NCBI GenBank assembly: GCA_934247125.1
Contig: CAKQIZ010000043.1
Location: 1 to 16,661 of the forward strand
Direction of reading: 5' to 3'
From: an uncultured Clostridia bacterium
GTDB lineage: Bacteria > Bacillota > Clostridia > Peptostreptococcales > Anaerovoracaceae
Length of the DNA stretch: 16,661 bases
This document shows, piece by piece, positions 2,061 through 16,661 of this stretch (its first letter is position 1; each line of letters starts with the position of its first letter). The position numbers were made by a program, and so were the translations under genes. A model generated the notes under the pieces. The model was given only the letters and a program-made list of their open reading frames with translations. It had not been told where the DNA came from and did no database searches.

Positions 2061-2095
2061 AAAGCCCGCGGGCTGTTGGCTGACGCGGGCTTTTC
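2061..2095 (+). terminator. Rho-independent terminator after the MurE-like gene
   Basis: A perfect 10-bp stem, AAAGCCCGCG (2061-2070) with CGCGGGCTTT (2084-2093), closes a 13-base loop, and TTTT follows. It lies 43 bases after the stop codon. The loop also carries the -35 element of the prmA promoter. Confidence 0.85.
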
Positions 2096-2104
2096 TGGTA
2101 TAAT
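2076..2104 (+). promoter_or_regulatory. Promoter for prmA-rsmE, embedded in the terminator
   Basis: TATAAT at 2099-2104 is preceded by TGG (2096-2098), giving an extended -10. A TTGGCT -35 lies at 2076-2081 with 17-bp spacing, inside the loop of the preceding terminator. The expected transcript start near 2111 leaves a leader of about 28 bases before the prmA ATG. Confidence 0.6.
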
Positions 2105-2138
2105 CGTAAATGCATATAAATTAGGAGGAACATAAATT

Positions 2139-3113: not shown

Positions 3114-3116
3114 CAG

Positions 3117-3911
3117 ATGAGAAGATTTTTCGTTCCGCCTGAAAACGTGGGAGAGAATACGATAATCATAGACGACAGGAATGATCTGCATCATATGATA
3201 AAGGTGCTGAGGCTTTCGGAGGGCGACCGCATAGCGATCTCCGACTCGCAGGAATGGGAGTATCAGGCGGAGCTGGTGCACCTTGACAGCGACGGTGCGG
3301 AAGCAGCGATACTGGACAAGCAGAAGTTCACAGCCGAGCCGGAAACAAAGATAACGCTTTTTCAGGGGATACCGAAGCAGGGGAAGATGGAGCTGATCGT
3401 GCAGAAAGCTGTGGAGCTCGGCGTCAGCGATATCGTGCCGGTATTCATGAAGCGGACGGTCGTAACTGACAAAGGCAATTTCGGCAGGAAGATACAGCGG
3501 TGGCAGAAGATATCTGATGAAGCGGTGAAGCAGTGCAGACGCGGAGTGATCCCGGAGGTGCATGACGCCGTGAAGATGGACGGGGCGATCGGCCGGTTCG
3601 GCGAGTTCGATATGGTGCTGCTTCCTTATGAAAATGAGGAAGGCACGACGATAAAGGATGTGCTGCGTGCAGCTGTTTCACAAGACTGCGGTAACGGCTC
3701 TGATAGTGATGGCTCTGATGATGCAAAGCCTTCAGGAAGGCCTGTAAGTATTGCTGTCGTGATCGGCCCTGAGGGTGGCTTTTCGGACGAGGAGGCTGAG
3801 GCTGTGGTCGGGGCCGGAGGCCTTTCGGTGTCGCTAGGCAAGACGACGCTGAGGACTGAGACCGCGGGGATCGCAGCGATAGCGATGATAATGTACGAAC
3901 TGGAGCTTTAG
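3117..3911 (+). CDS. rsmE: 16S rRNA (uracil(1498)-N(3))-methyltransferase RsmE
   Basis: SPOUT-superfamily methyltransferase that modifies U1498 of 16S rRNA using SAM. The 264-residue protein starts with the MRRFFVPPEN-type N-terminus of the family. It has an N-terminal PUA-like RNA-binding region (about 1-75) and a C-terminal trefoil-knot domain with GPEGGF (217-222), SLG (239-241) and LRTETA (245-250), which form the SAM site. It starts three bases after the prmA stop, and no separate promoter is seen. One oddity is a Ser/Asp/Gly-rich insert at about 187-209, just before the knot, whose DNA contains GGCTCTGAT twice with a 15-bp period (3696-3704 and 3711-3719). The insert is in frame and sits where a surface loop is expected, so the enzyme should be functional. 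Confidence 0.94.
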   Translation: MRRFFVPPENVGENTIIIDDRNDLHHMIKVLRLSEGDRIAISDSQEWEYQAELVHLDSDGAEAAILDKQKFTAEPETKITLFQGIPKQGKMELIVQKAVELGVSDIVPVFMKRTVVTDKGNFGRKIQRWQKISDEAVKQCRRGVIPEVHDAVKMDGAIGRFGEFDMVLLPYENEEGTTIKDVLRAAVSQDCGNGSDSDGSDDAKPSGRPVSIAVVIGPEGGFSDEEAEAVVGAGGLSVSLGKTTLRTETAGIAAIAMIMYELEL

Positions 3912-3998
3912 GATCCGGTCGGCAAACAGATGAAACCCCCTGCGGGGATACCTAGATGTCGATCCACAATCGACAAATATATGAAACGGAGGTGTGTT

Positions 3999-4910
3999 AT
4001 GAAGTGTGTCTTTCTGGACTGCGCGATAATAAATCCGGGGGATATTTCCTGGGAAAAACTGCAGTCGGCAGCAGATCTCGAATACTATGACAGGACCGTA
4101 TCTGATCAGATAACAGAACGGCTAAAAGGTGCCGAGGGCGTATTCACAGACAGTGCAGTGATGACGAGAGAGATCATGGAGTCGTGTCCGGATCTGAAAT
4201 ACATAGGCATCGCTGCGACAGGCTATAATCATGTCGACCTCGATGCGGCGAAGGAGCTCGGCATAGCTGTGACGAACGTCTCCGGCTATGCGGCAGATGC
4301 AGTAGCCCAGCATGCCATCGCGCTGCTCCTTTACATAACGAACAAAATACAGATCTACAGCGATGCTGTAGCTGACGGTGAATGGAACAGAGCCGAGGAC
4401 TACACATTCATAAAGGCTCCGCTCACGCTGCTTGCCGGAAAATCGATAGGCATCGTCGGATACGGTGCGATCGGGAAGCGAGTGGCCGAGATCGCTAGTG
4501 CGCTGGGAATGACGGTCAACATATACAGCAGAGACAGGGATGCAGCCATCGCATCTGATGTGGTGTCGCTGAACTGCCCTCTGACTAAGGAAAACGCAGG
4601 CATGGTCGATGCCGGGTTCATCTCGGAGATGAAAGACGGCGCGATCCTGATCAACACGGCAAGAGGCGGTCTTGTCGATGAATATGCGCTCGCAGCAGCG
4701 CTTAGATCAGGAAAGCTTGCAGGAGCAGGGCTCGATGTGCTCGCATCTGAGCCGCCTGCGCCGGATGATCCGCTTGTGGGTCTCGAAAACTGTGTGATAA
4801 CGCCGCATATCGGATTCATCCCGATCGAAGCCAGACAGCTGATAATCGACACGCTTGCAGAAAACCTGCAGAGCTTTATCGACGGCGGCGAGCTGAACCG
4901 CATCGTGTAG
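3999..4910 (+). CDS. D-isomer-specific 2-hydroxyacid dehydrogenase (glycerate dehydrogenase-like)
   Basis: NAD(P)-dependent cytoplasmic oxidoreductase that interconverts a 2-keto acid and a D-2-hydroxyacid. I chose the ATG at 3999 because GGAGG (3988-3992) lies six bases upstream and the protein then begins with the family-type first strand MKCVFLD; an in-frame ATG at 3930 would add 23 unrelated residues. The 303 residues include GYGAIG (154-159) for the dinucleotide, catalytic Arg222 in NTARGG, Glu251 in SEPP and His270 in TPHIG. The segment between strand 2 (NIYSRDRD, 174-181) and SDVVSL (186-191) is about 15-20 residues shorter than is usual in the family. Strand 2 ends in Ser-Arg rather than the acidic residue of NAD-specific members, hinting at NADP(H). 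The VAQHAIALLL stretch resembles glycerate/hydroxypyruvate dehydrogenases, but the substrate is not proven. Confidence 0.85.
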   Translation: MKCVFLDCAIINPGDISWEKLQSAADLEYYDRTVSDQITERLKGAEGVFTDSAVMTREIMESCPDLKYIGIAATGYNHVDLDAAKELGIAVTNVSGYAADAVAQHAIALLLYITNKIQIYSDAVADGEWNRAEDYTFIKAPLTLLAGKSIGIVGYGAIGKRVAEIASALGMTVNIYSRDRDAAIASDVVSLNCPLTKENAGMVDAGFISEMKDGAILINTARGGLVDEYALAAALRSGKLAGAGLDVLASEPPAPDDPLVGLENCVITPHIGFIPIEARQLIIDTLAENLQSFIDGGELNRIV

Positions 4911-5017
4911 CAGGCAGTCGTCAGGTCATCAGGCTGACAGATCGTCGAACTGCCGGTCGGGCATGCAGGCTGATGCCAGAGAATGCAGGCTGCCGGCCGG
5001 TCGGGAAATTCAAGCTG
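4911..5017. repeat. Intergenic region with short direct repeats between convergent genes
   Basis: ATGCAGGCTG occurs at 4963-4972 and 4983-4992, and GCCGGTCGGG at 4952-4961 and 4996-5005; CAGGCTG also occurs near 4930. A weak hairpin GGCAT/ATGCC spans 4960-4977. No T-tract is present, so a classical terminator is not supported even though the two flanking genes converge here. Confidence 0.5.
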
Positions 5018-6943
5018 TCAGTCGAGGAATTCAAAAAAATCTTCCGGAGATACGTCGGGAGGTCTGAGATGTCTTTTGATCCTGTAAAGGCATGACGGAT
5101 CTCCTTTTTTGATGGTGCTGACACCCTCGGTGCAGCTCAGCGTCGCCTTGAAACCCATTTTTCGAAGCTCAGCGTCAGTATTTTCGCTGAAAGCTCCGAA
5201 CGGATATGTGAATGTCGTCGGTGCGACTCCGGTGACGTACGCGATCTTGTCCTGCAGTGCCATGATGTCTGAGCGCAGGAAGCTGTCGTAGGAGCTGTCG
5301 CTTTCGCCTTTCATCTGCGAGACTCCGTTCCGCTTTTCGTAGGTGTGGCAGTCGTAGGAGTGGTTTTGTATCTCCCAGTAGCCGGAAAGGTGCATCTCGA
5401 GGATGTCGTCCCATGTCACATGGGCATAGCCCGGGTTGCGGTCGACGTTCCCGGAAAATTCATCGGACATTTTTCCGACGACTGACAGGACTGCCTTCAT
5501 GTTGTACTTTTTCAGGAGCGGGTAGGCATAATAATAGTTGTTGTAGTATCCGTCGTCAAATGTTATCACGATCGGATGTTCGGGCAGGGTGCCGCTGCCT
5601 TCGGCGAATGCGATCACTTCCTTCATGAACACCGGAGTATACCCTTTCTCTTTTATGTATTTCAGGTCTTTTTCGAAGAGATCCGGTGAGACTATGTATT
5701 TGTTGTTATTTTTGTTTTCTTTCAGTATCGCATGATACATCATCACAGGCAGCTCGATCTCATCGGAATCTGAGACATCTGCTGACGCTTCTTTTTCCCT
5801 GAGGTAGAAGTTTTCTTCTATGAACTGGTATTTTCGTTCGTATCTGCCGGTGTCCTCGTTTTTTACCACTGTGCATCTGTGTGATGAAAGCAGCTTTGTG
5901 ATAGAGTAAAGGTCTACCCATATCTGCGTCGGGCTGTCCTTTGTGTCTTCGTCGAATATCAGCTGCATGCCAAAATGGAGATGCGGCGTGTCGATGTTGT
6001 TCGTGTTTTCTCTGAGGCTGTAACCGGTCTGTCCGGTGAATCCGATGACGTCGCCCGCAGTCACGGTCGCTCCGATGTAAAGGTCGTCAGCATATGGGTC
6101 GTCTTTTCGCAGATGGGCATAATAGTAGTATCGCTGTTTATCATAGCTTCTGATACCGATCCGCCAGCCGCCGTACTGGTTCCAGCCGAGAGCTTCGACC
6201 GTGCCGCTTTCTACCGCGATGACGGGTGTGCCTGTCTCGGTCATCATGTCGTGACCGAGATGACGCCTGCTGTATCCGTAGCTGCGGTTTTCCCCGAAGT
6301 CATCGAAATCGGAGTAGCAGAAGCCGTCTGCTATCGGCGAGAAGGCTTTGAGTCCATATGCTTTTTTCCATGTGCCGCCCTGAGACTGGGAAATATCACG
6401 GGCGTCCCGCCCGGCATCCTGTCCTGACCGGGACGAGGCCTGGCTCTTGTCTGCGGGATCGCTCTGATCCGGGGACTGTCCCTGATCTGCCGATGTGCTG
6501 TCAGAAGGGATCTTTATCTGGTATTCGCCCAGCATGCCTCCGAGCACAGCGCTGTACGCCTTGTGATAGTAATCGAAATATTTCATGTCTTTTGTGAGCG
6601 CTGCAATGGAATGTCCGTTCTTTATATCGGACACGAAGCTGTCCATGTCGGCAGCTCTGTATCTTGTAAAATCTCCTCCGTATCTGGCGCCCAGATAGGC
6701 CAGGATATCTGTCCAGTTCATGTGTACGGGTTCATCATACGTTTCGATATCGATATCCATGGCTTTTTTCAGTACATCGTAAGGCACATTGAATTCGACC
6801 CACCTGATGGGTTTGTCGGCATCTGATGACGGCTTGCCGGTTATGGCCGGGATATCGGCCGCGATCAGTGAAAATGCGACAGACAGAGCCGTGCAGAGTA
6901 TCGTCAGGGCGGCCGCCAGAGCTATGCCTCTTTTCTTTTCCAT
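5018..6943 (-). CDS. Membrane-anchored M23 metallopeptidase-polysaccharide deacetylase fusion
   Basis: This 641-residue protein should act on the cell wall or an exopolysaccharide outside the membrane. An N-terminal signal anchor (about 6-30) is followed by a helical domain (about 45-145) often seen before clostridial M23 domains, a Ser/Gln/Asp-rich linker (147-190), an M23 (LytM-like) domain and a NodB-type carbohydrate esterase 4 domain. M23 residues visible: H228 and D232 (HxxxD), H277, and H321/H323 (HLH). Deacetylase residues visible: D463-D464 in TFDDGY, H528 and H533 in an HSxxxH motif, and TYPFG (579-583). Both active sites look intact. The start has CAGGAGGTC just upstream on the minus strand. 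The likely role is coupled cleavage of peptide cross-links and N-deacetylation of glycan; which glycan is unknown. It is divergent from mtaB and convergent with the dehydrogenase gene. Confidence 0.9.
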   Translation of the reverse strand: MEKKRGIALAAALTILCTALSVAFSLIAADIPAITGKPSSDADKPIRWVEFNVPYDVLKKAMDIDIETYDEPVHMNWTDILAYLGARYGGDFTRYRAADMDSFVSDIKNGHSIAALTKDMKYFDYYHKAYSAVLGGMLGEYQIKIPSDSTSADQGQSPDQSDPADKSQASSRSGQDAGRDARDISQSQGGTWKKAYGLKAFSPIADGFCYSDFDDFGENRSYGYSRRHLGHDMMTETGTPVIAVESGTVEALGWNQYGGWRIGIRSYDKQRYYYYAHLRKDDPYADDLYIGATVTAGDVIGFTGQTGYSLRENTNNIDTPHLHFGMQLIFDEDTKDSPTQIWVDLYSITKLLSSHRCTVVKNEDTGRYERKYQFIEENFYLREKEASADVSDSDEIELPVMMYHAILKENKNNNKYIVSPDLFEKDLKYIKEKGYTPVFMKEVIAFAEGSGTLPEHPIVITFDDGYYNNYYYAYPLLKKYNMKAVLSVVGKMSDEFSGNVDRNPGYAHVTWDDILEMHLSGYWEIQNHSYDCHTYEKRNGVSQMKGESDSSYDSFLRSDIMALQDKIAYVTGVAPTTFTYPFGAFSENTDAELRKMGFKATLSCTEGVSTIKKGDPSCLYRIKRHLRPPDVSPEDFFEFLD

Positions 6944-7010
6944 TAAAGACCTCCTGTGTGTTTTAATTAAAAATATGAAGACTTCCGCTGTTTTATGAAT
7001 GACCCGGGTG

Positions 7011-7019
7011 TGCTATAAT
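7011..7019 (+). promoter_or_regulatory. Extended -10 promoter for mtaB
   Basis: TGC directly precedes TATAAT (7014-7019), an extended -10 element, about 32 bases before the mtaB ATG. Only a weak -35 candidate (TTTATG at 6992-6997, 16-bp spacing) is present. The same 108-base gap must also hold the minus-strand promoter of the M23/deacetylase gene, which I could not place. Confidence 0.5.
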
Positions 7020-7051
7020 TACCTGTAATACGATCAGCGGGAGGACAGACG

Positions 7052-8419
7052 ATGAAAGTTGCATTCCACACATTAGGATGTAAGGTTAACCAGTACGAAA
7101 CAGAGGCGATCTCGGAAAAGTTCAGAGAAAAGGGCTATCAGGTCGTGGACGAGAGGGAGTTCGCCGATGTGTATATCATAAATACATGCACGGTCACATC
7201 GGTGGCCGACAAGAAGTCGAGGCAGTACATAAGAAAGATGAAGAAGCTCAATCCCGGCAGCGTGGTCGCGGTGACAGGCTGCTATGCGCAGATAAAGCCG
7301 GAAGAAGTGGCGGCTGTGGAGGGCGTCGACATAGTGGCGGGCACTAATGAAAAGAGCCGTCTGACTGAATATGTCGAGGAATTCATGCAGGAGGGGCAGC
7401 GACAGATACATATCAGAGGATACGAGGAACTGGACGCCTACGATGATATGGGCACGATCACGAGCACGGAGAACAGGACGCGGGCGTATATCAAGATCCA
7501 GGAGGGCTGCAACCGCTTCTGCACCTACTGCGTCATACCGTATGCGCGCGGCAGAGTGAGGAGCAGACCGCTCGACGATATCGTGCGCGAGGCGAAGCAG
7601 CTCGTGGATGCCGGGTATAAGGAGATAGTCCTGACGGGCATAAACACTGCGCTTTACGATATGGAAAGCGGCACGCGTGCTTGCGCCGGGAGCGGTGTGG
7701 ATGCCGGCCGGCAGGATGATGAGCAGCTTTACGGCGTCGAGAAAATAATCGCAGTGCTCGACGAGATGCCGGGCGATTTCAGGATAAGACTGAGCTCGCT
7801 GGAGCCCGCAGTCGTGAATGCGGATTACGTTAAAAGACTGCTGAAATACCGAAGGCTGTGCCACCACCTGCATCTTTCCGCACAGAGCGGCAGCGACAGC
7901 GTGCTCAGTGACATGAACAGGCCGTATGACCGTGCGGAGTACATGGAGATCGTTGATGTGCTGAGATCGTTCGATCCGCTGTACGGACTGTCGACAGATA
8001 TAATCGTTGGATTTCCGGGAGAAAAGGAGAAGGACTTCGAGGACAGCTGCAGCCTCGTGCGGGAGTGTGCTTTCTGCAAAACGCATATATTCAAGTACTC
8101 CAAGAGGCCGTTCACGAAAGCGGCGGAGATGAAGGGCCATGTCGCGCCGCAGGTTAAAAACAGGCGAAGCGAGACGCTCCATAAAGCAGGAAAGGAAGCC
8201 TCGCTGCAGTTCTTTGCAGCAAACAGCGGCAGCGAAGCGGTAGTGCTGGCGGAGGAAATCTACGCAGAGAAGAAACTTATAACCGGCTACACGGGAAATT
8301 ATATAAAAGCATACATCAGATACAAAGATCTGCAGGATGCCGAACGCATGCTCAACACTTTCGTGAATGTGCGGCTGCAGGAGGCATTCGAAGACGGCAT
8401 GACTGCAGAGCTGGTGTGA
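7052..8419 (+). CDS. mtaB: tRNA (N6-L-threonylcarbamoyladenosine(37)-C2)-methylthiotransferase MtaB
   Basis: Radical-SAM enzyme that adds a methylthio group to t6A37 in tRNAs reading ANN codons, giving ms2t6A. The 455 residues fit the family (Bacillus YqeV type). The N-terminal UPF0004 domain opens with FHTLGCKVNQYETEA and carries the auxiliary-cluster cysteines C10, C46 and C77. The radical-SAM cluster C153-x3-C157-x2-C160 lies in EGCNRFCTYC. A TRAM-like RNA-binding region is expected at about 390-455. CGGGAGGA at 7038-7045 supports the ATG at 7052. A Gly/Ala/Asp-rich insert (about 204-226) lies between VLTGIN and the next helix, where family members are usually shorter. The minus-strand amidohydrolase gene ends only nine bases beyond its stop. 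Confidence 0.95.
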   Translation: MKVAFHTLGCKVNQYETEAISEKFREKGYQVVDEREFADVYIINTCTVTSVADKKSRQYIRKMKKLNPGSVVAVTGCYAQIKPEEVAAVEGVDIVAGTNEKSRLTEYVEEFMQEGQRQIHIRGYEELDAYDDMGTITSTENRTRAYIKIQEGCNRFCTYCVIPYARGRVRSRPLDDIVREAKQLVDAGYKEIVLTGINTALYDMESGTRACAGSGVDAGRQDDEQLYGVEKIIAVLDEMPGDFRIRLSSLEPAVVNADYVKRLLKYRRLCHHLHLSAQSGSDSVLSDMNRPYDRAEYMEIVDVLRSFDPLYGLSTDIIVGFPGEKEKDFEDSCSLVRECAFCKTHIFKYSKRPFTKAAEMKGHVAPQVKNRRSETLHKAGKEASLQFFAANSGSEAVVLAEEIYAEKKLITGYTGNYIKAYIRYKDLQDAERMLNTFVNVRLQEAFEDGMTAELV

Positions 8420-8428
8420 CGGGAACGT

Positions 8429-9715
8429 TTACAGGAACTTGTCCAGTTCTGTTTCCACCTGTTTTCTTTTCCTGATTTTCGGATGATCGATGATGCTGCC
8501 TTTTGCGACGACCATCTCGAGATCACGCAGAGCGCGCAGGTCTTCAAGCGGGTTTCCTGCGGTGACGATCATATCTGCGGCTTTTCCTTTTTCGATGGAG
8601 CCGGTGACATCTCCGATACCGGCCAGCTCAGCGCTTCGGCTGGTCGCGGTATACAAGGCGAAAGCGCTGGAAACGCCGACGTATTTGTGGAAGTAGTAAA
8701 GCTCGCGCCAGAAGTCGTACTGCGTGATCCACGGACAGCCGACGTCGTTGCCGAGAACGAGCGGGATATCATTTTCAAGAGCTGCCTTAGCGCAGTCGAT
8801 GATACCTTCGAAAACGACGTTGCCGTTGTACTGTTCGACTTCGCTCGCATTGCTGACAGAACGGTCGAACAGAGCATACGGCAGTGCCGGTGAGATCGTA
8901 GTACAGAGGAATGCTCCGCGTTCTTTGAAAAGCCTTATCATATCATCATCGAGCTTAGCGCCGTGTTCGATAGAGTCTACCCCGTTTTCCAGTGCGGCAC
9001 GCACGCCTTCCGGAGACTCGACGTGCGCGGCGACAAGATAGCCGTCGGCATGTGCCTGACTGCATACCGCACGTATCATTTCAGGCGGCATCTTCATTTC
9101 ACCGGGAACTCCTTTTTCCCGGGCGTCCAGCACTCCGCCGGTGATCATCAGTTTGATGAGATCGACTTTTTCTTCCTTTGATTTTTCAAGCTGTCTGAGC
9201 GCGTCTGAAATGCCTGATGCAGCGACGGCGACGGATCCGGCCATGTGCCCTCCGGGAACGGATATCCCCTGATTGGCAGCGAGGATACGGGGGCCGGTCT
9301 TAGTGCCCGATTCGATCTCGTCGCGCAGACGTGTATCGAAATCGGCGAGTCCTCCGACTGTGCGGATAGTCGTGACGCCGCTCAGAAGCTCGTCCTTTGC
9401 AAAACCTGCGACCATTTTATATGCGACCGCCCTGGTGAGAGAGGTGCTCATGATCTTTTTCACCAGCTTCTCATTGTCGCGCTGCTTTTTCTGAGGTTTC
9501 CCATTCCCTGCAAGATGAACGTGCATGTTGATCAGCCCGGGAAGTATGTAATGACCGTGAAGGTCGATGACATCATGATCACTGAGATCGAGCTCAGCCG
9601 TGTCAGGTACGATATCAGCGATAATGCCGTCATGCACCAGGATGCAGAGGCCCTTCTGTATTTTCATATCTCTGGTCCCGTCCAGAATCAGTCCGTTTTT
9701 AAATGCGTGATTCAT
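8429..9715 (-). CDS. Metal-dependent amidohydrolase (imidazolonepropionase-like subgroup)
   Basis: Cytoplasmic hydrolase of the amidohydrolase superfamily, 428 residues. It has a small beta-sandwich at both ends around a TIM barrel. Metal and catalytic residues visible: H65 and H67 (HxH in INMHVHLAG), K188 in LIKLMITGG as the probable carboxylated lysine, H231 (AHVESPEG), H251 (SIEHG) and D324 (LGNDVG). The closing strand 'GKAADMIVTAGNPLEDLRAL' is typical. The pattern matches members described as Xaa-Pro dipeptidases or carboxypeptidase-like amidohydrolases, but substrates in this subgroup vary, so none is assigned. No signal peptide is present. The start is supported by GGAGAA just upstream on the minus strand, and a promoter is placed at 9757-9786. 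Confidence 0.85.
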   Translation of the reverse strand: MNHAFKNGLILDGTRDMKIQKGLCILVHDGIIADIVPDTAELDLSDHDVIDLHGHYILPGLINMHVHLAGNGKPQKKQRDNEKLVKKIMSTSLTRAVAYKMVAGFAKDELLSGVTTIRTVGGLADFDTRLRDEIESGTKTGPRILAANQGISVPGGHMAGSVAVAASGISDALRQLEKSKEEKVDLIKLMITGGVLDAREKGVPGEMKMPPEMIRAVCSQAHADGYLVAAHVESPEGVRAALENGVDSIEHGAKLDDDMIRLFKERGAFLCTTISPALPYALFDRSVSNASEVEQYNGNVVFEGIIDCAKAALENDIPLVLGNDVGCPWITQYDFWRELYYFHKYVGVSSAFALYTATSRSAELAGIGDVTGSIEKGKAADMIVTAGNPLEDLRALRDLEMVVAKGSIIDHPKIRKRKQVETELDKFL

Positions 9716-9756
9716 AACAATTCTCCGATCATTTTTGTTTGGATTTGCTTGTTTTA

Positions 9757-9786
9757 ACTATACACCAGATCGCAGAACATTTGCAA
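9757..9786 (-). promoter_or_regulatory. Minus-strand promoter for the amidohydrolase gene
   Basis: Read on the minus strand, TTGCAA (9786-9781) and TATAGT (9762-9757) are 18 bp apart. The predicted transcript start lies about 35 bases before the ATG at 9715. Confidence 0.5.
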
Positions 9787-9926
9787 GATTTAGTGAGCCG
9801 TGTCATCCGGTACGGTGAGGATCATCGGATATGTCAGGCAGCAGGGAAAAAATGTACAAATCATCTCGTGTATGATAGGATAGTATGATGCAAACAGATC
9901 GATCGAGAAGCTGTGGAGGTGTGCTG

Positions 9927-10676
9927 ATGAAAAAGTCATATAGAATAAAGTCATATGGAATATTGAAGATCGCTTTAAGGTGTACGTTAGTCATCTATGC
10001 CGGGGCTGCATGCCTGTCACTGTCGTCATGCGGGACGGCGAAGGAAGACAGTAAACGGGATCAGAGCATTTATACCGGAAAAACGCAGGAAGCTGATGTC
10101 TTTATCGATATCCCGGATCTGCGTCAGTATGGAGGCTATACCTGCGGGGCGACATGTGTGCAGATGCTGATGAACTGGATCGATCCATACAGCAGCGACC
10201 TGAATCTGGCAACATATGAAGAAGAACTCGGGACAAACGAGGAGACAGGGACTCCTGCGGAAAATATAGTAGAGTATTTTGAAGAGAATGAAGTGAAGAT
10301 ATCTGCGAAAGAAAAAAGGACGATAGACGATCTGATATCTGCACTGGATCGAGGGCATCCTGTGCTGATGTGCATACAGGCATGGCCTTCGTCAGAAGAA
10401 GGAGACAGATACAATACAACAGATCCCGGTGATGCAGATACATATCTGACTGAAGGGCACTGGGTCATATGCGTCGGCTACCATGATCAGAAAAACGGAT
10501 ATGTATTTTACTTCAATGATCCGGCATGCGTCGGGCATTGCATGATGAATGAAAAAGACCTGGAGGATCGCTGGATCGATATGGATGCCGGGGGTAAAAT
10601 TTATGACCATTACGGCATCGAGATCAGTGAAGATGTGGAAGTCTATGATCCGGACGGGGTTTTTTATCTTGAGTAG
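9927..10676 (+). CDS. C39-like cysteine peptidase lipoprotein
   Basis: Predicted lipoprotein of 249 residues exposed outside the membrane. I chose the ATG at 9927 because GGAGGTG precedes it at the right distance and a basic n-region, hydrophobic core and lipobox (LSSC, lipidated Cys35) follow; the in-frame ATG at 9885 lacks this. The mature part is a papain-fold C39_2-like domain: catalytic Cys73 in YTCGATC after the gln-containing DIPDLRQYGG, His178 in EGHWVICVGY, and Asn197/Asp198 in YFNDPA. The triad order fits bacteriocin-leader-type and related C39 peptidases. No ABC transporter or membrane domain is attached, so a role in bacteriocin export is not supported. It is closed off from the downstream fibre operon by a terminator, so any link with that operon is only by proximity. 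Confidence 0.82.
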   Translation: MKKSYRIKSYGILKIALRCTLVIYAGAACLSLSSCGTAKEDSKRDQSIYTGKTQEADVFIDIPDLRQYGGYTCGATCVQMLMNWIDPYSSDLNLATYEEELGTNEETGTPAENIVEYFEENEVKISAKEKRTIDDLISALDRGHPVLMCIQAWPSSEEGDRYNTTDPGDADTYLTEGHWVICVGYHDQKNGYVFYFNDPACVGHCMMNEKDLEDRWIDMDAGGKIYDHYGIEISEDVEVYDPDGVFYLE

Positions 10677-10705
10677 TAGTTCCGAAAAGATTTATTTCTG
10701 CAGAG

Positions 10706-10743
10706 CTGCGGCCTTTTATGCAAAGGGCTGCAGTTATTTTTTT
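10706..10743 (+). terminator. Rho-independent terminator after the C39-like lipoprotein gene
   Basis: A 12-bp stem pairs 10706-10717 (CTGCGGCCTTTT) with 10722-10733 (AAAGGGCTGCAG), including two G-U pairs, around a four-base loop ATGC. TTATTTTTTT follows. It separates the lipoprotein gene from the fibre operon. Confidence 0.85.
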
Positions 10744-10822
10744 GCAAAAGATCAAAGAGCACGTCCGGCCGCAGGTGCGATATGGACAGATACTATCTTA
10801 TCTTAAAAAACACAGTTTTTTC

Positions 10823-10848
10823 CAGAAAATGTATTGACAGAAAATGTA
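10823..10848 (+). repeat. 15-bp-spaced direct repeat over the fibre-operon -35 box
   Basis: CAGAAAATGTA occurs at 10823-10833 and again at 10838-10848. The second copy begins within the TTGACA box and runs into the spacer. An AT hairpin (AAAAAAC/GTTTTTT, 10805-10821) lies just upstream. The layout suits a regulator binding across the -35, or a small duplication. Confidence 0.6.
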
Positions 10849-10862
10849 AATGTATATATAAT
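10834..10862 (+). promoter_or_regulatory. Perfect-consensus sigma-A promoter of the fibre operon
   Basis: TTGACA at 10834-10839 and TATAAT at 10857-10862 match the consensus exactly with a 17-bp spacer. Transcription should start near 10869, giving a leader of about 86 bases before the first ATG. A promoter this strong is usually restrained by a repressor or by leader control unless the product is abundant. Confidence 0.85.
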
Positions 10863-10888
10863 CCAGATATAGTAAAAAATTCATAAAA

Positions 10889-10935
10889 TCCGGGTACAGA
10901 TCCCGGAAAGTGCCCGGGGTCACAAACCCGGACAC
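10889..10935 (+). promoter_or_regulatory. Structured 5' leader with two related hairpins
   Basis: Hairpin 1 pairs TCCGGG (10889-10894) with CCCGGA (10902-10907). Hairpin 2 pairs GTG-C-CCGGG (10910-10918) with CCCGG-A-CAC (10927-10935), with one C/A mismatch. Because both share CCGGG/CCCGG arms, the arms could re-pair with each other. The Shine-Dalgarno AAAGGAGG lies only a few bases downstream. There is no T-tract, so it is not a simple terminator; I recognise no known riboswitch. Confidence 0.55.
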
Positions 10936-10954
10936 AGTCAAAAAGGAGGAAAAA

Positions 10955-11599
10955 ATGGTGATTGGAAGAACAGAAAGCGGAAAGTCAAAGTTAAGAAAGT
11001 GTGCAGCGGCAGCGCTGGCAGTGATGACGCTTGCATCAGCAGGTGCGACACTTGCATTTTTTACAGATCAGGAAGAGAAGGTAAATACATTTACAGTCGG
11101 AAATATCGACATACAGCTGGAAGAACCGCAGTGGGATCCCGATAAAGGCAAGGACATCACTCCTGATAAAGAGGTGCCCAAGGATCCTCAGATCACTAAC
11201 ACCGGAGCCAACGATGCATATGTGTTCATGGAAGTGAGCGTGCCGAGAAGCGAGGTCAGGACAGTGAATGATGACGGCAGTCTCACAGAAGCGCTCGTTC
11301 AGGATCTGTTCACTTATGAGACGAATGAGGGATGGACGCTGATGAGGAAGCAGTCAAATCATAACAGCACTACATATTACTATGCATATACTGATGCGGA
11401 CAATACGATGAAGGCGCTGAAGCCGGAAGAGACTACGACGCCTGTGTTCAGCAGCGTCAGATTCATAAACATGACAGAAGGAGAGATCGAGGGTGAAGAT
11501 CTTTCCATAAATGTCATTTCGAGAGGAATACAGACGGAAGATCTTGATATAACGGATCCGTTAGAAATATATTCCCTGATCGTAGGAGGAATGAAATAG
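10955..11599 (+). CDS. TasA/camelysin-like fibre subunit with SipW-type signal peptide
   Basis: Secreted protein of 214 residues and probable major subunit of a surface fibre. A SipW-type signal peptide (basic SKLRK, hydrophobic 16-34, then ATLAFFTD) leads into EEKVNTFTVGNIDIQL, the family hallmark also seen in Bacillus TasA (WAAFNDIKSKDATFASGTLDL region). A beta-rich domain follows, with an Asn-containing ITNTGANDAYVFMEV stretch (80-94) and a final strand INVISRGIQTED. AAAGGAGG ending at 10950 supports the ATG at 10955; an in-frame GTG at 10910 lies in the leader hairpin and is unlikely. It is the first gene after a consensus promoter, which fits an abundant product. TasA proteins form biofilm fibres and camelysin is a surface-protease name for the same family; fibre formation here is inferred. 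Confidence 0.88.
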   Translation: MVIGRTESGKSKLRKCAAAALAVMTLASAGATLAFFTDQEEKVNTFTVGNIDIQLEEPQWDPDKGKDITPDKEVPKDPQITNTGANDAYVFMEVSVPRSEVRTVNDDGSLTEALVQDLFTYETNEGWTLMRKQSNHNSTTYYYAYTDADNTMKALKPEETTTPVFSSVRFINMTEGEIEGEDLSINVISRGIQTEDLDITDPLEIYSLIVGGMK

Positions 11600-11611
11600 A
11601 GCGAGAGGTAA

Positions 11612-12127
11612 ATGGGTGAGATGAAAAGCAAATACCAGCTGGGAACAGCGAGTATCGCGGTCATACTGCTGGCTGTGATCCTGCTGATATCGGCAGATGT
11701 GGCGGCGGCACTGCTGATCGCCCGTCATTCTCTGGACAATGATTTCACTGCAGGGGAAAATATCAGTTCTATCGAGGAAAAGTTTGATGATCATGACGGA
11801 TTCAAGGCGGGGGAAACTTATGAAAAAAATGTAGCGGTACGAAATGAAGGGAGCGTCGACTGTTATGTGAGAGTATTTGCCGAGGTGGAGGATCCGCTTG
11901 TATCGGAGTCTCTTAAGATCGATTTCAATGACAGAGAATGGACTGAGAAACAGAGCGATGGATTCTACTACTACAGGAAAGTTCTCAGAACCGGAGAAGT
12001 GACGGAGCCTCTGTTCACTCAGATAAAGGCGGCGAAGGATATAGACGATTTCAGGATGATATGCTACAGCGAAACGGTACAGTCTGAAGGAAGTTCTGAC
12101 AGTATGAGCGCATTCCGGGGCAGATGA
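11612..12127 (+). CDS. Small TasA-like membrane-linked protein, probable minor fibre subunit
   Basis: No confident database-type family name, but the 171 residues repeat the pattern of the neighbouring proteins: a hydrophobic segment (about 13-37), NDFTAGENISSIEE (43-56; compare NTFTVGNIDIQLEE upstream), FKAGETYEKNVAVRN (64-78), YVRVFAEVED (85-94) and a last strand FRMICYSETVQSEG. I infer a degenerate TasA-like fold that may remain membrane-tethered, since the AFFTD-type cleavage motif is missing. It starts 12 bases after the previous stop. The start could be 11612 or the in-frame ATG at 11621; neither has an ideally placed Shine-Dalgarno (AGAGGT at 11604-11609). The next gene follows directly, so it is within one operon. 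It could initiate or cap the fibre, much as TapA does for TasA, but it is not recognisably TapA. Confidence 0.8.
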   Translation: MGEMKSKYQLGTASIAVILLAVILLISADVAAALLIARHSLDNDFTAGENISSIEEKFDDHDGFKAGETYEKNVAVRNEGSVDCYVRVFAEVEDPLVSESLKIDFNDREWTEKQSDGFYYYRKVLRTGEVTEPLFTQIKAAKDIDDFRMICYSETVQSEGSSDSMSAFRGR

Positions 12128-12141
12128 AAGAAGGTGCAGAT

Positions 12142-14214
12142 ATGAAATTTGGATCGATACAGAAAAAGCTGGCGGCAGTGTGTTTTGCGGTCACGGCTGC
12201 AGTGACGGTTTTTATCACGTATACATCTGCGGCATCTGCTGTGGCGACGGGTACAGTAGCGGACATCAACGCTATCGTTCCGGCAGGATATACATTCGAT
12301 ACCGGGTATATAAATGCTGAATGGAAGATAAATGATGCATATAAAAACGTGATAACTGTCATGGACAAGCGGTCGGGAGAAGGCTGCATAAGTTTTGTAG
12401 TAGCGAAGAACAGTTCATCGACGAAGACGTATACGGATCCGCTTACTGTTATATACAGAAATGCAGGAAAGATAAACGGAAGGTCTGTGGACATAAAGCT
12501 CAATGTTGATAAGCTGGTGCAGACCGGCAGCACGAACTCGAATATCGTCAACTGCGATGGCGAGTTCCTGTGCCTGTGGTCAGATTTGACTGATGTTTCA
12601 TCGCATAAGACTACAGGAACGAGGTACAAGCTGACACATACGACAGACCTTTCGTATACGATAATGTATGCTGATGACGGCAGTCTGGTGGAGCTTCCAT
12701 GTTTTCAGGCTGTGACAGATCTTGACACGTTTCAGAATGTCGCATCGGTTGCAGAAGGATTCGTGCCTGTTTCGGGATACAATACGGCGTATCTCTATCC
12801 GGGGAGTCTGCTGAAACAGCAGAATGGAGGTTTTTTCGCACCTTCGCAGCTTGAAACTAACGGAAGTGATTCCTATACGAAGACCGGGCTGTATATAACG
12901 ACGAACAACGGGAAATTCACAGGCAGATTTTACGGCACGAACTGCAGGACGCAGCTTCTTATATACAATCAGTACAGAGCCGGGATGCTGCCGAAGCCTT
13001 CTCTGTATATCGACAGTTCGCATGCTTATGAGCCCGGGGAAGACGTTCAGATAAATGTAAAACAGAAGATAGGCACATTGTTTGTAGATACAGTCACGCG
13101 TTACACGCAGTTCGGAATATCAGATGATATACCGCAGGGGCTTTCGTATAAATCAGCCAGAGTCCTGGATGGATCAGGCAGCGATGTCACAGACAAAGGA
13201 ACGCTGAGTTACGATGAAGCTTCAAGGATAGTGAAGTTCGAGTTTTCGAACAGTTTTATACAGTCTCAGAGCAGCTATGACGGGAGTCAGTATACGCTGG
13301 AGATAACTGCAGCTGCGGACTGCCCGGAAGGAGGAAGCGCAGTGATAACCGATACGGCGAGATCGATCATATCGGGGATAGAGCAGGAGACGAATGAGCA
13401 GTCGCTGAGAGTGGCCGTGCCGTACCATGTTTCGTATGAGTACGTGAGCGGATCACAGGGGCGGAGCCTGCCGGCGGAAATAAGCGTTTCAAAAGGAGCA
13501 TATGCGATTTCAGACAGCGGGGCGTATTATCAGGGGGATGAAGCGGTGAGAACGGAAAGTCCTGCAGAAGGTGCGAAGCTTGAAATCAAAGATGATGACG
13601 GCAGCCCTGCCGGTTCCTGGGTACTGTCATGGGATGCGGAAAAGAAAATTGTGGAAAGCGAAGACATAGTTTTTACAGGGACATGGAGATATGTGCCGGT
13701 TCCTCGTCTGGTTATAGTGAAGAAAATGAAAGACTCAAAAGATGAGTTCACGGCGGCGCATGGAGAGCCGGTATTCCTGTTCAGGATAACCGGCAGTGAC
13801 TCGGGAAAGTCGTGGTACAGAGCGATCACGTTCAGCAGCGAGGCTGTCAGAGCAGTCAGAAAAAACGGTTCATATATGGACAGCGACGGTGTATGCTTTA
13901 TTCTGCGTGATGGATATATCTATGGTAAATATGCACCGGTATATCTTCCGGAAGACGATTATACAGTGGAAGAGATAAATACGTTCAGGTACATCAGCAC
14001 GCTTGCGGAGTCCAGATATCATGGTGATAAGGCAGCTGTTGTGGATTCAGCCAGGGAAGCAGTGAAGGCGCCGCTGAGGCTGAGTGAGTACAAGCCCGGT
14101 CAGGACGGTTTTGGAGCGGATTATATCAGTGTATGCTTTGAAAACGCAAAAACCGACTGGGGCAGGCTGTCGCATACTGATATCATCATAAACAAACTGA
14201 AGGGGGCGGAGTGA
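12142..14214 (+). CDS. Large adhesin-like protein with isopeptide-type fimbrial, SHIRT-like and pilin-like domains
   Basis: Secreted 690-residue surface protein. The ATG at 12142 is preferred for its upstream AAGGTG and signal peptide (hydrophobic 11-28, probable cut after ASA33); an ATG at 12124 overlaps the previous stop and adds six residues. Regions: an unrecognised N-terminal beta-rich domain (34-285), an isopeptide-forming fimbrial-type domain (about 290-425; KQK at 307-309, FGISDDIPQGLSY, SYDEASRIVKFEF, ITDTA), a SHIRT/MucBP-like domain (about 428-516; YHVSYEYVSGSQG to VFTGTW) and a C-terminal pilin-like beta domain (about 521-680; VIVKKM, YLPEDDYTVEEI, SHTDIIINK). There is no sorting signal or C-terminal membrane segment, so it must be held by other subunits. 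The role is probably the adhesive or stalk part of the fibre. It overlaps the next gene by one base. Confidence 0.82.
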   Translation: MKFGSIQKKLAAVCFAVTAAVTVFITYTSAASAVATGTVADINAIVPAGYTFDTGYINAEWKINDAYKNVITVMDKRSGEGCISFVVAKNSSSTKTYTDPLTVIYRNAGKINGRSVDIKLNVDKLVQTGSTNSNIVNCDGEFLCLWSDLTDVSSHKTTGTRYKLTHTTDLSYTIMYADDGSLVELPCFQAVTDLDTFQNVASVAEGFVPVSGYNTAYLYPGSLLKQQNGGFFAPSQLETNGSDSYTKTGLYITTNNGKFTGRFYGTNCRTQLLIYNQYRAGMLPKPSLYIDSSHAYEPGEDVQINVKQKIGTLFVDTVTRYTQFGISDDIPQGLSYKSARVLDGSGSDVTDKGTLSYDEASRIVKFEFSNSFIQSQSSYDGSQYTLEITAAADCPEGGSAVITDTARSIISGIEQETNEQSLRVAVPYHVSYEYVSGSQGRSLPAEISVSKGAYAISDSGAYYQGDEAVRTESPAEGAKLEIKDDDGSPAGSWVLSWDAEKKIVESEDIVFTGTWRYVPVPRLVIVKKMKDSKDEFTAAHGEPVFLFRITGSDSGKSWYRAITFSSEAVRAVRKNGSYMDSDGVCFILRDGYIYGKYAPVYLPEDDYTVEEINTFRYISTLAESRYHGDKAAVVDSAREAVKAPLRLSEYKPGQDGFGADYISVCFENAKTDWGRLSHTDIIINKLKGAE

Positions 14215-15395
14215 TGAAAGCACAGATGAAGATATCTCGCAGAAAGCTCATTGCTGCCGTCGTGATGCTGATGACTGCGTTTACAGGGATAATATCGTAT
14301 GCAGCGTATGTTTCTTCTGAAAAGGTGGCAAACCGCTTCAGTTCCGGAGGCATAAACATCGAAGCGGAATGTTTGCAGGAAAAGGGCGGCGAGTTCATAC
14401 CGGCCGGCGAACTGACGGTTGCGGATCTTGATTCAGTCGTTTCATACATACCGCGCATAACGAACAGGGCAGAGGAATCATATATACGAGTGAAGCTTGA
14501 AGCGGAGAGTGCAGGGGACGATATAAATATCTCAAAGTACCTGTATGGCGTTGACGGCAGATGGAGAGAGATAGGAGAATATATGTACTATACTGAGAAG
14601 CTCGGGCACGATGAGGCTGTAGAGCTGTGCAGGGGTTTCGAGATCCCTGACGACTGGGACTACAGAAAAGAGAACAGGATGAAAGTAAGGCTCACAGCTG
14701 ATGCTGTGCAGACTAAGAATATCTGCCCTGATTTCGATTCAGAAGTACCATGGGGAGATGTGGCGGTCGAAAGATCAGAAGTCAGAGGACAGTACACAGT
14801 CAGAGAAAATGTGCCGGTCTCAGGGCAGGGTGCGGTGAAGATCGTCTGCGACAGGAGTTCGGGTATATCAGTTTCCGAAGACCACATGTTCAGTGATATC
14901 ACAGACGGGGCGTTCGTGCCGGGGGATGAACGCAGCGGAAGTCTGGTTATCAGAAATGATAGGAAGCACAAGGTCAAAGTGCTTTTTAAAGCCGTATCTG
15001 ACAGCTCAGAACTGTCCAAAAGCATGCAGCTGAAGATCTGCAGCAGACAGAATGACGGCGGCATGACAGACGGAAACATGGAGGTTTTCTACAGCGGCCC
15101 GATGGAAGACCGGAGACTGGATGAATACAGGGTCATCGCAGAACTTGATGCAGGTGAAGAGCAGCAGCTGGATATCACCACATCACTTCCGGCTGAGGCA
15201 GATAACAGATGCCAGCTGAAGGAAGGCGCGCAGTTATGGTATTTCACAGTCAGTGAGGATGGAGCCGCACCTGACACCGGTGAAACGGGACATTTCAGAA
15301 TACTGATGATGGCGGCATTATGTGCGGCGGCAGCCGCGGCAGCAGCTTTTATCATCGCGGTATCTGCATGCGGGAGACGGGAAAAAACTGCATAA
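14214..15395 (+). CDS. TasA-like protein with C-terminal APDTGE sorting signal (fibre wall anchor)
   Basis: Secreted 393-residue protein and probable base of the fibre. A signal peptide (basic 6-11, hydrophobic to about 32, SYAAYVSSEK) leads into NRFSSGGINIEAE (40-52). The first TasA-like domain (about 40-172) has PRITNRAEESYIRVKLEAE and ends MKVRLTADAVQTK. A second, shorter repeat (about 205-330) contains FVPGDERSGSLVIRN and VKVLFKAVSD. The C-terminus has APDTGE (352-357), a hydrophobic segment (about 362-383) that includes eight alanines in a row, and a basic tail GRREKTA, the layout of a sortase substrate with Ala in place of the usual first Leu. The ATG at 14214 follows the GGGGGCGGAG region and overlaps the previous stop (TGATG); a GTG at 14211 is possible. 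The sortase that would use APDTG is not in the window. Confidence 0.85.
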   Translation: MKAQMKISRRKLIAAVVMLMTAFTGIISYAAYVSSEKVANRFSSGGINIEAECLQEKGGEFIPAGELTVADLDSVVSYIPRITNRAEESYIRVKLEAESAGDDINISKYLYGVDGRWREIGEYMYYTEKLGHDEAVELCRGFEIPDDWDYRKENRMKVRLTADAVQTKNICPDFDSEVPWGDVAVERSEVRGQYTVRENVPVSGQGAVKIVCDRSSGISVSEDHMFSDITDGAFVPGDERSGSLVIRNDRKHKVKVLFKAVSDSSELSKSMQLKICSRQNDGGMTDGNMEVFYSGPMEDRRLDEYRVIAELDAGEEQQLDITTSLPAEADNRCQLKEGAQLWYFTVSEDGAAPDTGETGHFRILMMAALCAAAAAAAAFIIAVSACGRREKTA

Positions 15396-15430
15396 AAAAC
15401 AGAAACTGTACCGGCTGCAAGCCGATAATG

Positions 15431-15439
15431 TGATATAAT
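15431..15439 (+). promoter_or_regulatory. Extended -10 promoter for the HIT gene
   Basis: TGA precedes TATAAT (15434-15439), an extended -10, about 37 bases before the ATG. No good -35 is seen. A small hairpin (CGGCT/AGCCG, 15412-15424) upstream has no T-tract, so read-through from the fibre operon is possible. Confidence 0.5.
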
Positions 15440-15476
15440 ATGGCATAACGACAGCAAGAAGAAAGGAAGTGAGATC

Positions 15477-15818
15477 ATGAGCGATTGCATCTTTTGCCAG
15501 ATAGGCGATGGACAGATACCGTCGAACAAGGTATATGAAGACGATAAGATACTTTGTTTCCACGATCTGGATCCACAGGCACCGGTACACGTTCTGATAA
15601 TACCGAAGAAGCATATCACATCTCTGGATAACGTCACTGAGGAAGACAGTGAACTGCTTGGATACATAATGACCAAGGTAAAAGAGATAGCAGCGACACT
15701 GGGTCTGGAAAACGGATACAGACTTGTGAACAACTGCGGAGAAGACGGTCTTCAGACCGTAAAGCATCTTCATTTTCATCTTTTAGGAAAACGAAAGATG
15801 ACATGGCCGCCGGGCTGA
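15477..15818 (+). CDS. HIT-family purine nucleoside phosphoramidase (HinT-like)
   Basis: Cytoplasmic histidine-triad hydrolase that cleaves AMP-linked phosphoramidates and related nucleotide conjugates. The 113 residues match HinT length. Visible: CIFC at 4-7 (zinc-type cysteines), the IPKKHI strand (42-47), and the triad HLHFHLL (H97, H99, H101) followed by GKRKMTWPPG, the usual HinT C-terminus. AGGAAGTGAG upstream supports the ATG at 15477. In many Firmicutes this gene follows mtaB directly; here mtaB and this gene are about 7 kb apart. It should be expressed from its own extended -10 promoter. Confidence 0.93.
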   Translation: MSDCIFCQIGDGQIPSNKVYEDDKILCFHDLDPQAPVHVLIIPKKHITSLDNVTEEDSELLGYIMTKVKEIAATLGLENGYRLVNNCGEDGLQTVKHLHFHLLGKRKMTWPPG

Positions 15819-15850
15819 TGACGAGATAAAATCAAGAGGCAGAATGATGA

Positions 15851-15928
15851 GAAAAGGCTATATGCCGGAATTGCCGGGTGTCAGATATGGCACCGGTGAC
15901 CGGATACAGCCTTTTCTTTCTGTTCTTT
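15851..15928 (+). terminator. Probable terminator after the HIT gene, with a branched stem
   Basis: GAAAAGGCT (15851-15859) pairs perfectly with AGCCTTTTC (15908-15916). The stem continues through TAT/ATA and CCGG/CCGG with small defects, and a second inner hairpin (around GGTG/CACC, 15877-15894) is possible. The T-rich TTTCTGTTCTTT follows. Convergent nadC begins to be read on the other strand nearby, so it may act in both directions. Confidence 0.6.
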
Positions 15929-15989
15929 GATATATACAGCAAATATCGCCGTGATCACTGATCGTTATATTGACTGCATACAGATGCGA

Positions 15990-16661
15990 TCAGTCGATGA
16001 TCTTCAGGTTTTTCAGCGAAAGATCGAGAATAGGCGCAGAGTGAGTCAGTGCTCCGCTGGAAACGTAATCGACGCCTATATCGGCCAGCCTTGCGATGTT
16101 TTCCCTGGTGATATTTCCGGAGCATTCAGTCTCTGCACGACCGTCTGTCATCTCGACTGCTTTCTTCATATCATCATCGGACATATTGTCGAGCATTATG
16201 ATATCTGCTCCGGCCTCGAGAGCCTCGCGGAGCATTTCCAGATCTTCCACTTCGACTTCTACCTTGCGTACGAATGGTGCGTATTCTCTGGCCATTTTTA
16301 TGGCGGCTGCGACGCCTCCTGCGGCATTGATATGGTTGTCTTTGAGCATCACGCCGTCGGACAGATTGTATCTGTGATTGTGGCCGCCGCCTGCTCTTAC
16401 TGCATACTTTTCGAATATGCGCATGTTAGGGGTCGTCTTTCTCGTATCGAGAAGCTTTATCCCGGTACCTTCCAGCATGCGTGTCATTTCACTGGTATAA
16501 GTGGCTATCCCGCTCATTCTCTGAAGGAAATTGAGCGCTGTGCGTTCTCCGGACAGTATCGCGCGTGCACTGCCTTCGACAGTGGCGATATGCTGTCCTG
16601 CAGTGACCGCATCGCCGTCGGAAACGAATGCATTAACAACAGTGCTGTCGTCAAGCATACT
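15990..16661 (-). CDS. nadC: Nicotinate-nucleotide pyrophosphorylase (carboxylating) NadC, 5' end outside window
   Basis: Quinolinate phosphoribosyltransferase of de novo NAD synthesis, which converts quinolinate and PRPP to nicotinate mononucleotide, CO2 and pyrophosphate. About 223 C-terminal residues are visible and the frame stays open to the window edge, so the start is beyond it; the Met codon at 16656-16658 is internal. Family signatures present: ERTALNFLQRMSGIAT, the LDTRKTTPNMRIFEKYAV active-site stretch, AGGGHNHRYNLSDGVMLKDNHI, the EVEVE strand and LDNMS. The C-terminus VDYVSSGALTHSAPILDLSL is also typical. Neighbouring nadA/nadB would be expected beyond the window, but this cannot be seen. 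Confidence 0.94.
   Translation of the reverse strand, partial: SMLDDSTVVNAFVSDGDAVTAGQHIATVEGSARAILSGERTALNFLQRMSGIATYTSEMTRMLEGTGIKLLDTRKTTPNMRIFEKYAVRAGGGHNHRYNLSDGVMLKDNHINAAGGVAAAIKMAREYAPFVRKVEVEVEDLEMLREALEAGADIIMLDNMSDDDMKKAVEMTDGRAETECSGNITRENIARLADIGVDYVSSGALTHSAPILDLSLKNLKIID

Follow-up and report, generated by a model that had tools for sequence, protein, structure and literature searches.

The subject of this analysis is a run of four genes, here called P1 to P4, on a 16,661-nucleotide stretch of DNA from an uncultured Clostridia bacterium of the family Anaerovoracaceae (contig CAKQIZ010000043.1, positions 1 to 16,661; hereafter the window). The four genes form a co-directional unit led by a perfect promoter, and there is a slightly better than even case that this unit specifies a fibre of the TasA/BsaA type, linked to the wall at its base and carrying an adhesin. 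The evidence lies in the gene layout, in domain homologies, in the presence or absence of sorting-like signals in the individual proteins and in the return of the same plan in three independent loci.

The promoter agrees with TTGACA-17-TATAAT in 12 of 12 positions and is unique in the window with both strands searched, while 300 first-order Markov copies of the window held two such matches in total, counted on one strand. Sites agreeing in 9 of 12 positions show no excess in the region (10, against a shuffle mean of 10.2). For P1 a GTG at 10910 is readable as a start, but the ATG at 10955 is the one preceded by AAGGAGG. P1 and P2 are separated by 12 bases. P3 starts either at ATG 12142, 14 bases past P2 (690 residues), or at ATG 12124 with a 4-base overlap (696 residues), and the overlap between P3 and P4 is 1 base, or 4 bases if P4 starts at GTG 14211. 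A preliminary description of this DNA, made from the letters alone, had named a consensus promoter followed by four co-directional genes with a 12-base gap or overlaps, and both are present (Table 1).

Table 1. Coordinates of the P1-P4 unit and its elements in the window
Feature	Position	Strand	Remarks
Intrinsic-terminator-like hairpin	10704..10735	+	Strong; 14 pairs, T-run, tail ATTTTTTTGC; follows the C39 gene and bounds the unit on its upstream side
Sigma-70-type promoter TTGACA-17-TATAAT	10834..10862	+	12/12, sole such match in the window
P1	10955..11599	+	214 residues; TasA/camelysin superfamily, SipW-type signal; putative fibre subunit
P2	11612..12127	+	171 residues; small BsaA-type protein; putative minor subunit or initiator
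P3	12142..14214	+	690 residues; large adhesin; no sorting signal, no C-terminal membrane segment
P3 head, residues ~50-421	12289..13404	+	Sgo0707 N1-N2-like; 4igb profile and Foldseek matches, AgI_II_C2
P3 single SHIRT, residues 428-517	13423..13692	+	7avh, E 1e-12
P3 C-terminal region, residues 523-690	13708..14211	+	Conserved F-N-K-W-SH-N tail; putative docking domain
P4	14214..15395	+	393 residues; two-domain sortase-signal protein; putative wall-anchored base
P4 domain 1, residues 31-199	14304..14810	+	Related to the P2/BsaA family
P4 domain 2, residues 200-349	14811..15260	+	Related to anchor proteins of SipW/BsaA loci
APDTGE sorting-signal-like motif	15267..15284	+	Followed by hydrophobic helix 15294-15368 and basic tail

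P1 exceeds the cut-offs of both the TasA/camelysin model PF12389 (30.4 bits, cut-off 22.5) and the SipW-type signal model TIGR04088 (31.8 bits, cut-off 19), in agreement with its earlier description as a SipW-type TasA-like subunit. The PF12389 match covers residues 17-106 of P1 only and is confined to the first half of the model. P2 and P4 do not match PF12389, and none of the four proteins matches NF046066, the NCBIfam equivalog model of TasA, at E<=1; P1 or P4 as a plain TasA ortholog was rejected on these Pfam and NCBIfam results. P2 reaches 58.1 bits against TIGR04090 (BsaA), just under the 60-bit cut-off. From its 77 homologs, 32 were picked by eye for spread and aligned with P2 (alignment A3), and all 33 rows match TIGR04090 at E<=0.01. 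Comparison of A3 with P1 by hhalign gave a probability of 98.2% (E 2.9e-14 for a single comparison, signal region included). By this sequence comparison P1 is tied to the P2/BsaA family, and P2, which had been noted as a small related protein, is the BsaA-like member of the set. As read from the sequence, P1, P2 and P4 have the pattern N-x-F-x-x-G in common at what are presumed to be their mature N-termini. SipW-type N-termini are predicted in all three, in P1 by a model and in P2 and P4 by this pattern alone. Neither P1 nor P2 has a C-terminal hydrophobic segment or sorting signal. Sequence searches of the PDB with P1, the P2 family, the P4 family and the TasA-like protein of Acetoanaerobium did not list TasA, and tblastn searches of a plasmid collection with P4 or P1 were unproductive.

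P4 is the sole protein of the four with a sorting-like signal. It ends in APDTGE, a hydrophobic segment (Kyte-Doolittle 2.54 over 19 residues) and a GRREK tail, which to all appearances are the motif, hydrophobic helix and basic tail of sortase-anchored proteins. A C-terminal hydrophobic segment is found in all 11 P4 homologs (Kyte-Doolittle 2.21 to 2.99), and the motif reads AxxT[GS]x in 10 of them and EPDTGE in one. Degenerate forms in the family include APDTGE, APDTSE, APRTGD, AVKTGN and AVDTGD. The degeneracy of this motif, the failure of P4 to match an LPXTG model and the absence of a sortase domain from the scanned open reading frames of the window would also suit a P4 end that is a C-terminal membrane anchor only, giving a membrane-bound base without any sortase. 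Such a base is very unlikely in view of the conservation of the threonine in 10 of 10 and the glycine in 9 of 10 sequences of alignment A1 (P4 with nine of its 11 homologs, omitting P0005, which is 99% identical, and the 234-residue P0013). It also fits poorly with the canonical LPRTG and LPKTG ends of the domain-2 relatives described below and with the one sortase of the Acetoanaerobium record, which lies distant from the SipW locus.

The remainder of P4 appears to consist of two domains of different affinity. Compared with A3, P4 gave an hhalign probability of 96.7% (E 3.8e-10, P4 residues 5-197, signal region included), and domain 1 without the signal region scored 38.2 against the P2 family, where the best of 100 shuffles reached 22.4. 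Domain 1 is thus related, by sequence, to the P2/BsaA family. Domain 2 scored 44.3 against an LPRTG protein of Acetoanaerobium (shuffle maximum 17.9, 0/100) and 25.2 against an LPKTG protein of Enterococcus wangshanyuanii (shuffle maximum 20.6, 0/100). Its match to a YPRTG protein of E. raffinosus is weak (18.6, reached by 2 of 100 shuffles), and against the P2 family it scored 34.6 (shuffle maximum 23.0). P4 therefore looks like a BsaA-type domain joined to an anchor module which in other bacteria is a protein of its own. What had been described as a TasA-like protein with an APDTGE signal keeps its signal and, through domain 1, its tie to the BsaA family, while domain 2 groups with the anchors found in the comparison loci. 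A 667-residue protein on a contig classed as viral (IMGVR_UViG_3300031867_001215, L005:9605-11608) also has a region that resembles P4 domain 1 (hhalign 97.1%, E 7.2e-11) and includes a DAVQxxNxxPDFxSxxPW motif, together with a long TP repeat and an end composed of QTGDD, a helix and KKK.

The plan of the unit, as judged from the encoded proteins, recurs in two bacterial classes. P2-like proteins were found in five records of the plasmid collection at E<=0.1, all of which were inspected: Acetoanaerobium noterae NZ_CP154629.1 (L002), E. wangshanyuanii NZ_CP021876.1 and E. raffinosus NZ_CP081847.1, NZ_CP104763.1 and NZ_CP104393.1. Searches with other members of the P2 family gave four, five and two records, all from the same five. 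The E. raffinosus trio represents one locus, which leaves three independent loci in the two classes. In each of the five records, about 8 kb on one strand encodes a SipW-type peptidase, at least one further TasA/BsaA-type protein, a sorting-signal protein, a P2-like protein and a large protein that lacks a sorting signal (863 to 1124 residues); sorting signals were checked in these listed proteins, and further anchored proteins may lie nearby. The peptidase exceeds the cut-off of TIGR02228 in the three cases tested and was assigned by position and likeness to L004 in the two remaining records (L006 and L007); the Bacillus SipW model NF046067 stayed below its cut-off in all three peptidases tested. 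Two larger BsaA-type proteins accompany the P2-like one in four of the five records (two loci), again by likeness to L004 for L006 and L007. The annotations of the Enterococcus records offer only signal peptidase I, BsaA family, TasA family, cell wall protein and hypothetical protein. NZ_CP154629.1 is a circular record of 2.63 Mb that is labelled a plasmid and is of chromosome size.

The adhesin, by contrast, apparently does not recur with the plan. A C-terminal domain common to P3 and the large proteins of the other loci was considered and rejected, the scores being no better than those of shuffles, and it is because these proteins are unlike the C-terminal domain of P3 that only the plan is said to recur. 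The large protein of Acetoanaerobium has VWA and DUF11 domains, and those of E. wangshanyuanii and E. raffinosus have no Pfam match at E<=0.1. The two Enterococcus proteins (L003:10555-13929 and L004:10630-13923) are mostly dissimilar, with 233 identities in 1251 columns, and are most alike at the extreme C-terminus, in a PYSWDYKxN tail. This shared PYSWDYK end may hint at a docking tail, although it is suggestive only. For the window unit itself, homologs listed separately for different genes agree in the length of their longest contig (19174 in the lists of P2 and P4; 3534 and 19400 in those of P2 and P3), which suggests that the genes stand together in close relatives. In none of the other records examined were exactly these four genes encountered together.

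P3 has an Sgo0707-type N1-N2 head followed by a SHIRT domain. It scores above the cut-offs of AgI_II_C2 (37.0 bits, cut-off 27.1), SHIRT (32.8, cut-off 22.4) and the fimbrial model TIGR04226 (31.7, cut-off 30), so that the fimbrial and SHIRT-type character first ascribed to this 690-residue protein is borne out. Against Sgo0707_N1 it reaches 24.3 bits, just under the cut-off of 25. The head matches the profile of 4igb (E 7.4e-8, profile positions 83-419), and the P3 model, with a predicted local distance difference test (pLDDT) score of 63.7, matches 4igb_C in Foldseek (E 5.5e-18, template modelling score 0.45 on the target). The C-terminal region of 168 residues has no family match in Pfam or NCBIfam. 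Within its last 27 residues F, N, K, W, S-H and N are kept in all 10 aligned sequences (alignment A2, consisting of P3 and nine of its 13 homologs; P0017, P0023, P0027 and P0028 were omitted).

P3 itself has neither a C-terminal hydrophobic segment nor a sorting signal, and a sorting-type C-terminal segment is likewise absent from 10 of 10 full-length P3-type homologs (Kyte-Doolittle <= 1.11; the 417-residue fragment P0023 was omitted). The P3 head is shared by two long relatives, P0027 and P0028, whose alignments span about 60% of P3 at 50% and 48% identity. Their repeat region, which matches DUF11 and SHIRT and in P0027 includes three SHIRT-like segments, is longer than that of P3, and they end in TGD, a helix and a basic tail, in the manner of an anchor. 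The P3-type head thus occurs both in a longer, self-anchored form and in a short, unanchored form beside fibre genes, and this is the main reason to suppose that the fibre does the work of the stalk.

Partial matches to P3 were found in two Listeria phage and 378 plasmid records, none of them covering 80% of P3 and most, among those listed, lying over residues 299-418. A plasmid of Terribacillus goriensis (NZ_CP008877.1, L001) encodes a distant relative of the P3 head, with 24% identity over P3 residues 99-417, between WxL and DUF916 genes. A link between P3 and WxL systems was set aside, as no WxL or DUF916 match occurs in the window open reading frames scanned with Pfam, and the Terribacillus protein is treated as a head relative only. 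Scans of a viral collection with A2, A3 and P0003 were unproductive.

The fibre systems to which these proteins point have been studied elsewhere. In TasA fibres, the N-terminal strand of each subunit completes the next, and TapA has been proposed as the donor of the first strand (PMC9674648, PMC10151520). SipW, but not SrtB, is required for the filaments of BsaA (PMC7395162), and a sortase-independent, chaperone-like protein of Bacillus cereus, CapP, is found partly in the wall (PMC13082335). For the P3 type of adhesin, Sgo_0707 combines N1-N2 domains with SHIRT repeats, of which homologs have 3 to 14, and an LPXTG signal (PMC8201768).

In the most economical mechanism that may be proposed for the window unit, the fibre would be a repeat of P1, with P2, a member of the P1 superfamily, as a minor subunit. 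SipW-type cleavage of P1, P2 and P4 would expose mature N-termini that serve as donor strands, as in Bacillus TasA. P4, with its BsaA-like domain on an anchor domain, would be linked to the peptidoglycan by a sortase encoded elsewhere; held in the wall, it would give the first donor strand and so fasten the fibre there, whereas TapA has no covalent link with which to do this. P1 would polymerise outward from P4, this being the presumed polarity of the fibre, and the C-terminal domain of P3 may dock on the fibre, most simply by taking the free donor strand of the last P1. In the FimH-type tip adhesin it is also the C-terminal domain that accepts a donor strand. The fibre would in this way replace the long covalent stalk of ordinary Sgo0707-type adhesins. 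A more general form of this proposal is tentative, and we regard it as possible rather than probable: that there are Gram-positive donor-strand pili in which a SipW-processed TasA/BsaA polymer is built without sortase, a dedicated sorting-signal subunit welds the base to the wall and a modular adhesin without an anchor caps the fibre by strand complementation. If true, it would amount to a FimH-like solution without an usher, with adhesin heads moving between such fibres and ordinary multi-repeat stalks.

The same proteins might instead form a multi-part adhesin with no long fibre, in which a wall-anchored P4 receptor holds P3, and P1 and P2 are short caps or chaperones pairing with P4 domain 1. 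Although the restriction of the sorting-like signal to P4, the lack of an anchor in P3 and the shortness of P1, which covers only the first half of PF12389 and does not match the TasA equivalog, would all agree with such an arrangement, it is distinctly unlikely: the families to which P1 and P2 are tied polymerise in those members that have been studied (TasA, PMC9674648; BsaA, PMC7395162), and four of the five comparison records (two loci) have the two larger BsaA-type proteins beside the P2-like one.

A different account keeps the fibre and loosens its tie to the cell, with P1 and P2 forming BsaA-type fibres that are shed, P3 acting as a secreted glue to the host or to other cells and P4 retaining a fraction at the wall. 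The presence of a sortase-signal protein in each comparison locus, together with the P4 homologs, points to deliberate wall linkage, and this makes a shed matrix unlikely, even though the BsaA polymers of Clostridium perfringens are mostly extracellular and genes for the putative secreted proteins BsaB, BsaC and BsaD accompany that of BsaA (PMC7395162). TasA and CalY of B. cereus, too, are matrix filaments (PMC13082335).

A number of results weigh against a wall-based P1 fibre that carries P3. Among the 15 window open reading frames scanned with Pfam (shorter frames lay outside the scan), none has a SipW-type peptidase or sortase domain. TIGR04088 lists neither P2 nor P4 and is matched by only 3 of the 33 rows of A3. 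The polymers of BsaA in C. perfringens are mostly free and not wall-bound (PMC7395162). As to the base, APDTGE is not LPXTG, and P4 does not match the LPXTG model TIGR01167 at E<=1; in the P4 family (n=10) there is one match to the LPXTG model (E 0.018) and one to an NPXTG model (E 0.0045). P4 also has no Pfam match at E<=1 and only one irrelevant, weak NCBIfam match (12.2 bits, cut-off 170). The direct comparison of P1 with P4 domain 1 (19.2, maximum 17.9 in 12 shuffles) is near noise, and direct P1-P4 similarity was rejected accordingly, the tie running through the P2 family. Whole P4 compared with the E. raffinosus anchor gives a probability of 0.5%, at noise level. The AlphaFold model of P4 consists of two beta-sandwiches of low confidence (pLDDT 65, predicted template modelling score 0.42), and its fold neighbours (RbmA, transglutaminase and integrin domains) are generic beta-sandwiches that were counted as unspecific. 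TasA was not among the listed rows of these fold searches, an absence that does not count against it. Structure prediction, which had been suggested as a check, neither supports nor refutes a TasA fold for P4.

Further points of this kind concern the docking of P3. Its residues 613-690 are predicted to be disordered (pLDDT <50), though the shallow alignment alone could cause this. When its C-terminal domain was compared with the large proteins of the comparison loci, no similarity emerged (46, 18 and 59 of 100 shuffles scored as high), nor did any with the fibre proteins: P1 (19.0, reached by 1 of 100 shuffles), the P2 family (69 of 100) and P4 domain 2 (27 of 100). Its sole match above shuffles in the tested set is a weak one to the C-terminal part of the self-anchored P0027 (21.7, 0/100, probability 3.7%). 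Docking of P3 on a fibre would not need likeness of its C-terminal domain to the fibre proteins, yet the lack of such likeness does not help. Finally, two pattern-based scans of species-genome contigs found no relatives. The earlier proposal of a mixed TasA/sortase plan is partly supported: the plan returns in all five records (three of them one locus), and the exact four-gene set was recovered by neither genome scan.

The surroundings of the unit are ordinary. Upstream, at 9885-10676, lies an open reading frame with a C39-like peptidase domain, lipoprotein-like by eye and followed by its own terminator-like hairpin. Genes for a HIT protein and nadC lie downstream. Further upstream are genes for a Mur ligase, PrmA, an RNA methyltransferase, a hydroxyacid dehydrogenase, an M23/deacetylase protein, a radical SAM protein and an amidohydrolase. 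The M23/deacetylase protein (5018-6943, minus strand, 641 residues) joins M23 peptidase and polysaccharide deacetylase domains. An Rfam search of the window gave nothing useful.

TasA- and BsaA-type fibres are known as components of the biofilm matrix, and little is understood of how they are tied to the cell. A sortase-signal protein with a BsaA-type domain, and related anchors beside SipW/BsaA genes in Clostridia and enterococci, would offer a testable answer to the question of how such fibres are retained, and the fibres may in addition act as carriers of adhesins, i.e. as pili. Among the open papers listed in literature searches (subscription papers and preprints being outside their scope), none was seen to describe a TasA/BsaA system whose base is anchored by sortase or whose adhesin is like Sgo0707, in line with the earlier statement that a described system with exactly this set was not known.

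Among known systems, sortase-assembled pili of the SpaA/EbpC/RrgB type resemble the unit in their plan of an anchored base and an adhesin, and the second head domain of P3 matches the isopeptide fimbrial model TIGR04226. They differ from it in that P1 and P2 lack a sorting signal and no sortase stands beside the genes in the scanned open reading frames. The Sgo0707/FibA LPXTG adhesins of streptococci share the N1-N2 head and SHIRT with P3, which has one SHIRT instead of 3 to 14, no LPXTG and a different C-terminal domain. The tapA-sipW-tasA operon of Bacillus subtilis has in common with the unit a SipW-type signal, a TasA-superfamily subunit and an accessory protein that perhaps gives the first donor strand. 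In the available text, that operon comes without a covalent anchor or large adhesin; in the window unit no sipW was found, the sortase-signal protein P4 takes the place of TapA and P3 is added. The sipW-bsaABCRSD operon of C. perfringens (Obana 2020, PMC7395162) likewise encodes a filament-forming BsaA-type protein and further secreted proteins together. Unlike the window unit, it includes sipW and bsaRS, its polymers are mainly free and SrtB-independent, and nothing in the part of the article at hand describes BsaB, BsaC or BsaD as wall-anchored or Sgo0707-like. The loci of Acetoanaerobium and Enterococcus have the SipW gene inside, an anchor without a counterpart of P4 domain 1 and large proteins without Sgo0707 or SHIRT matches, but they share with the window unit the TasA/BsaA subunits, a P2-like protein, an anchor related to P4 domain 2 (weakly so in E. 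raffinosus) and a large unanchored protein.

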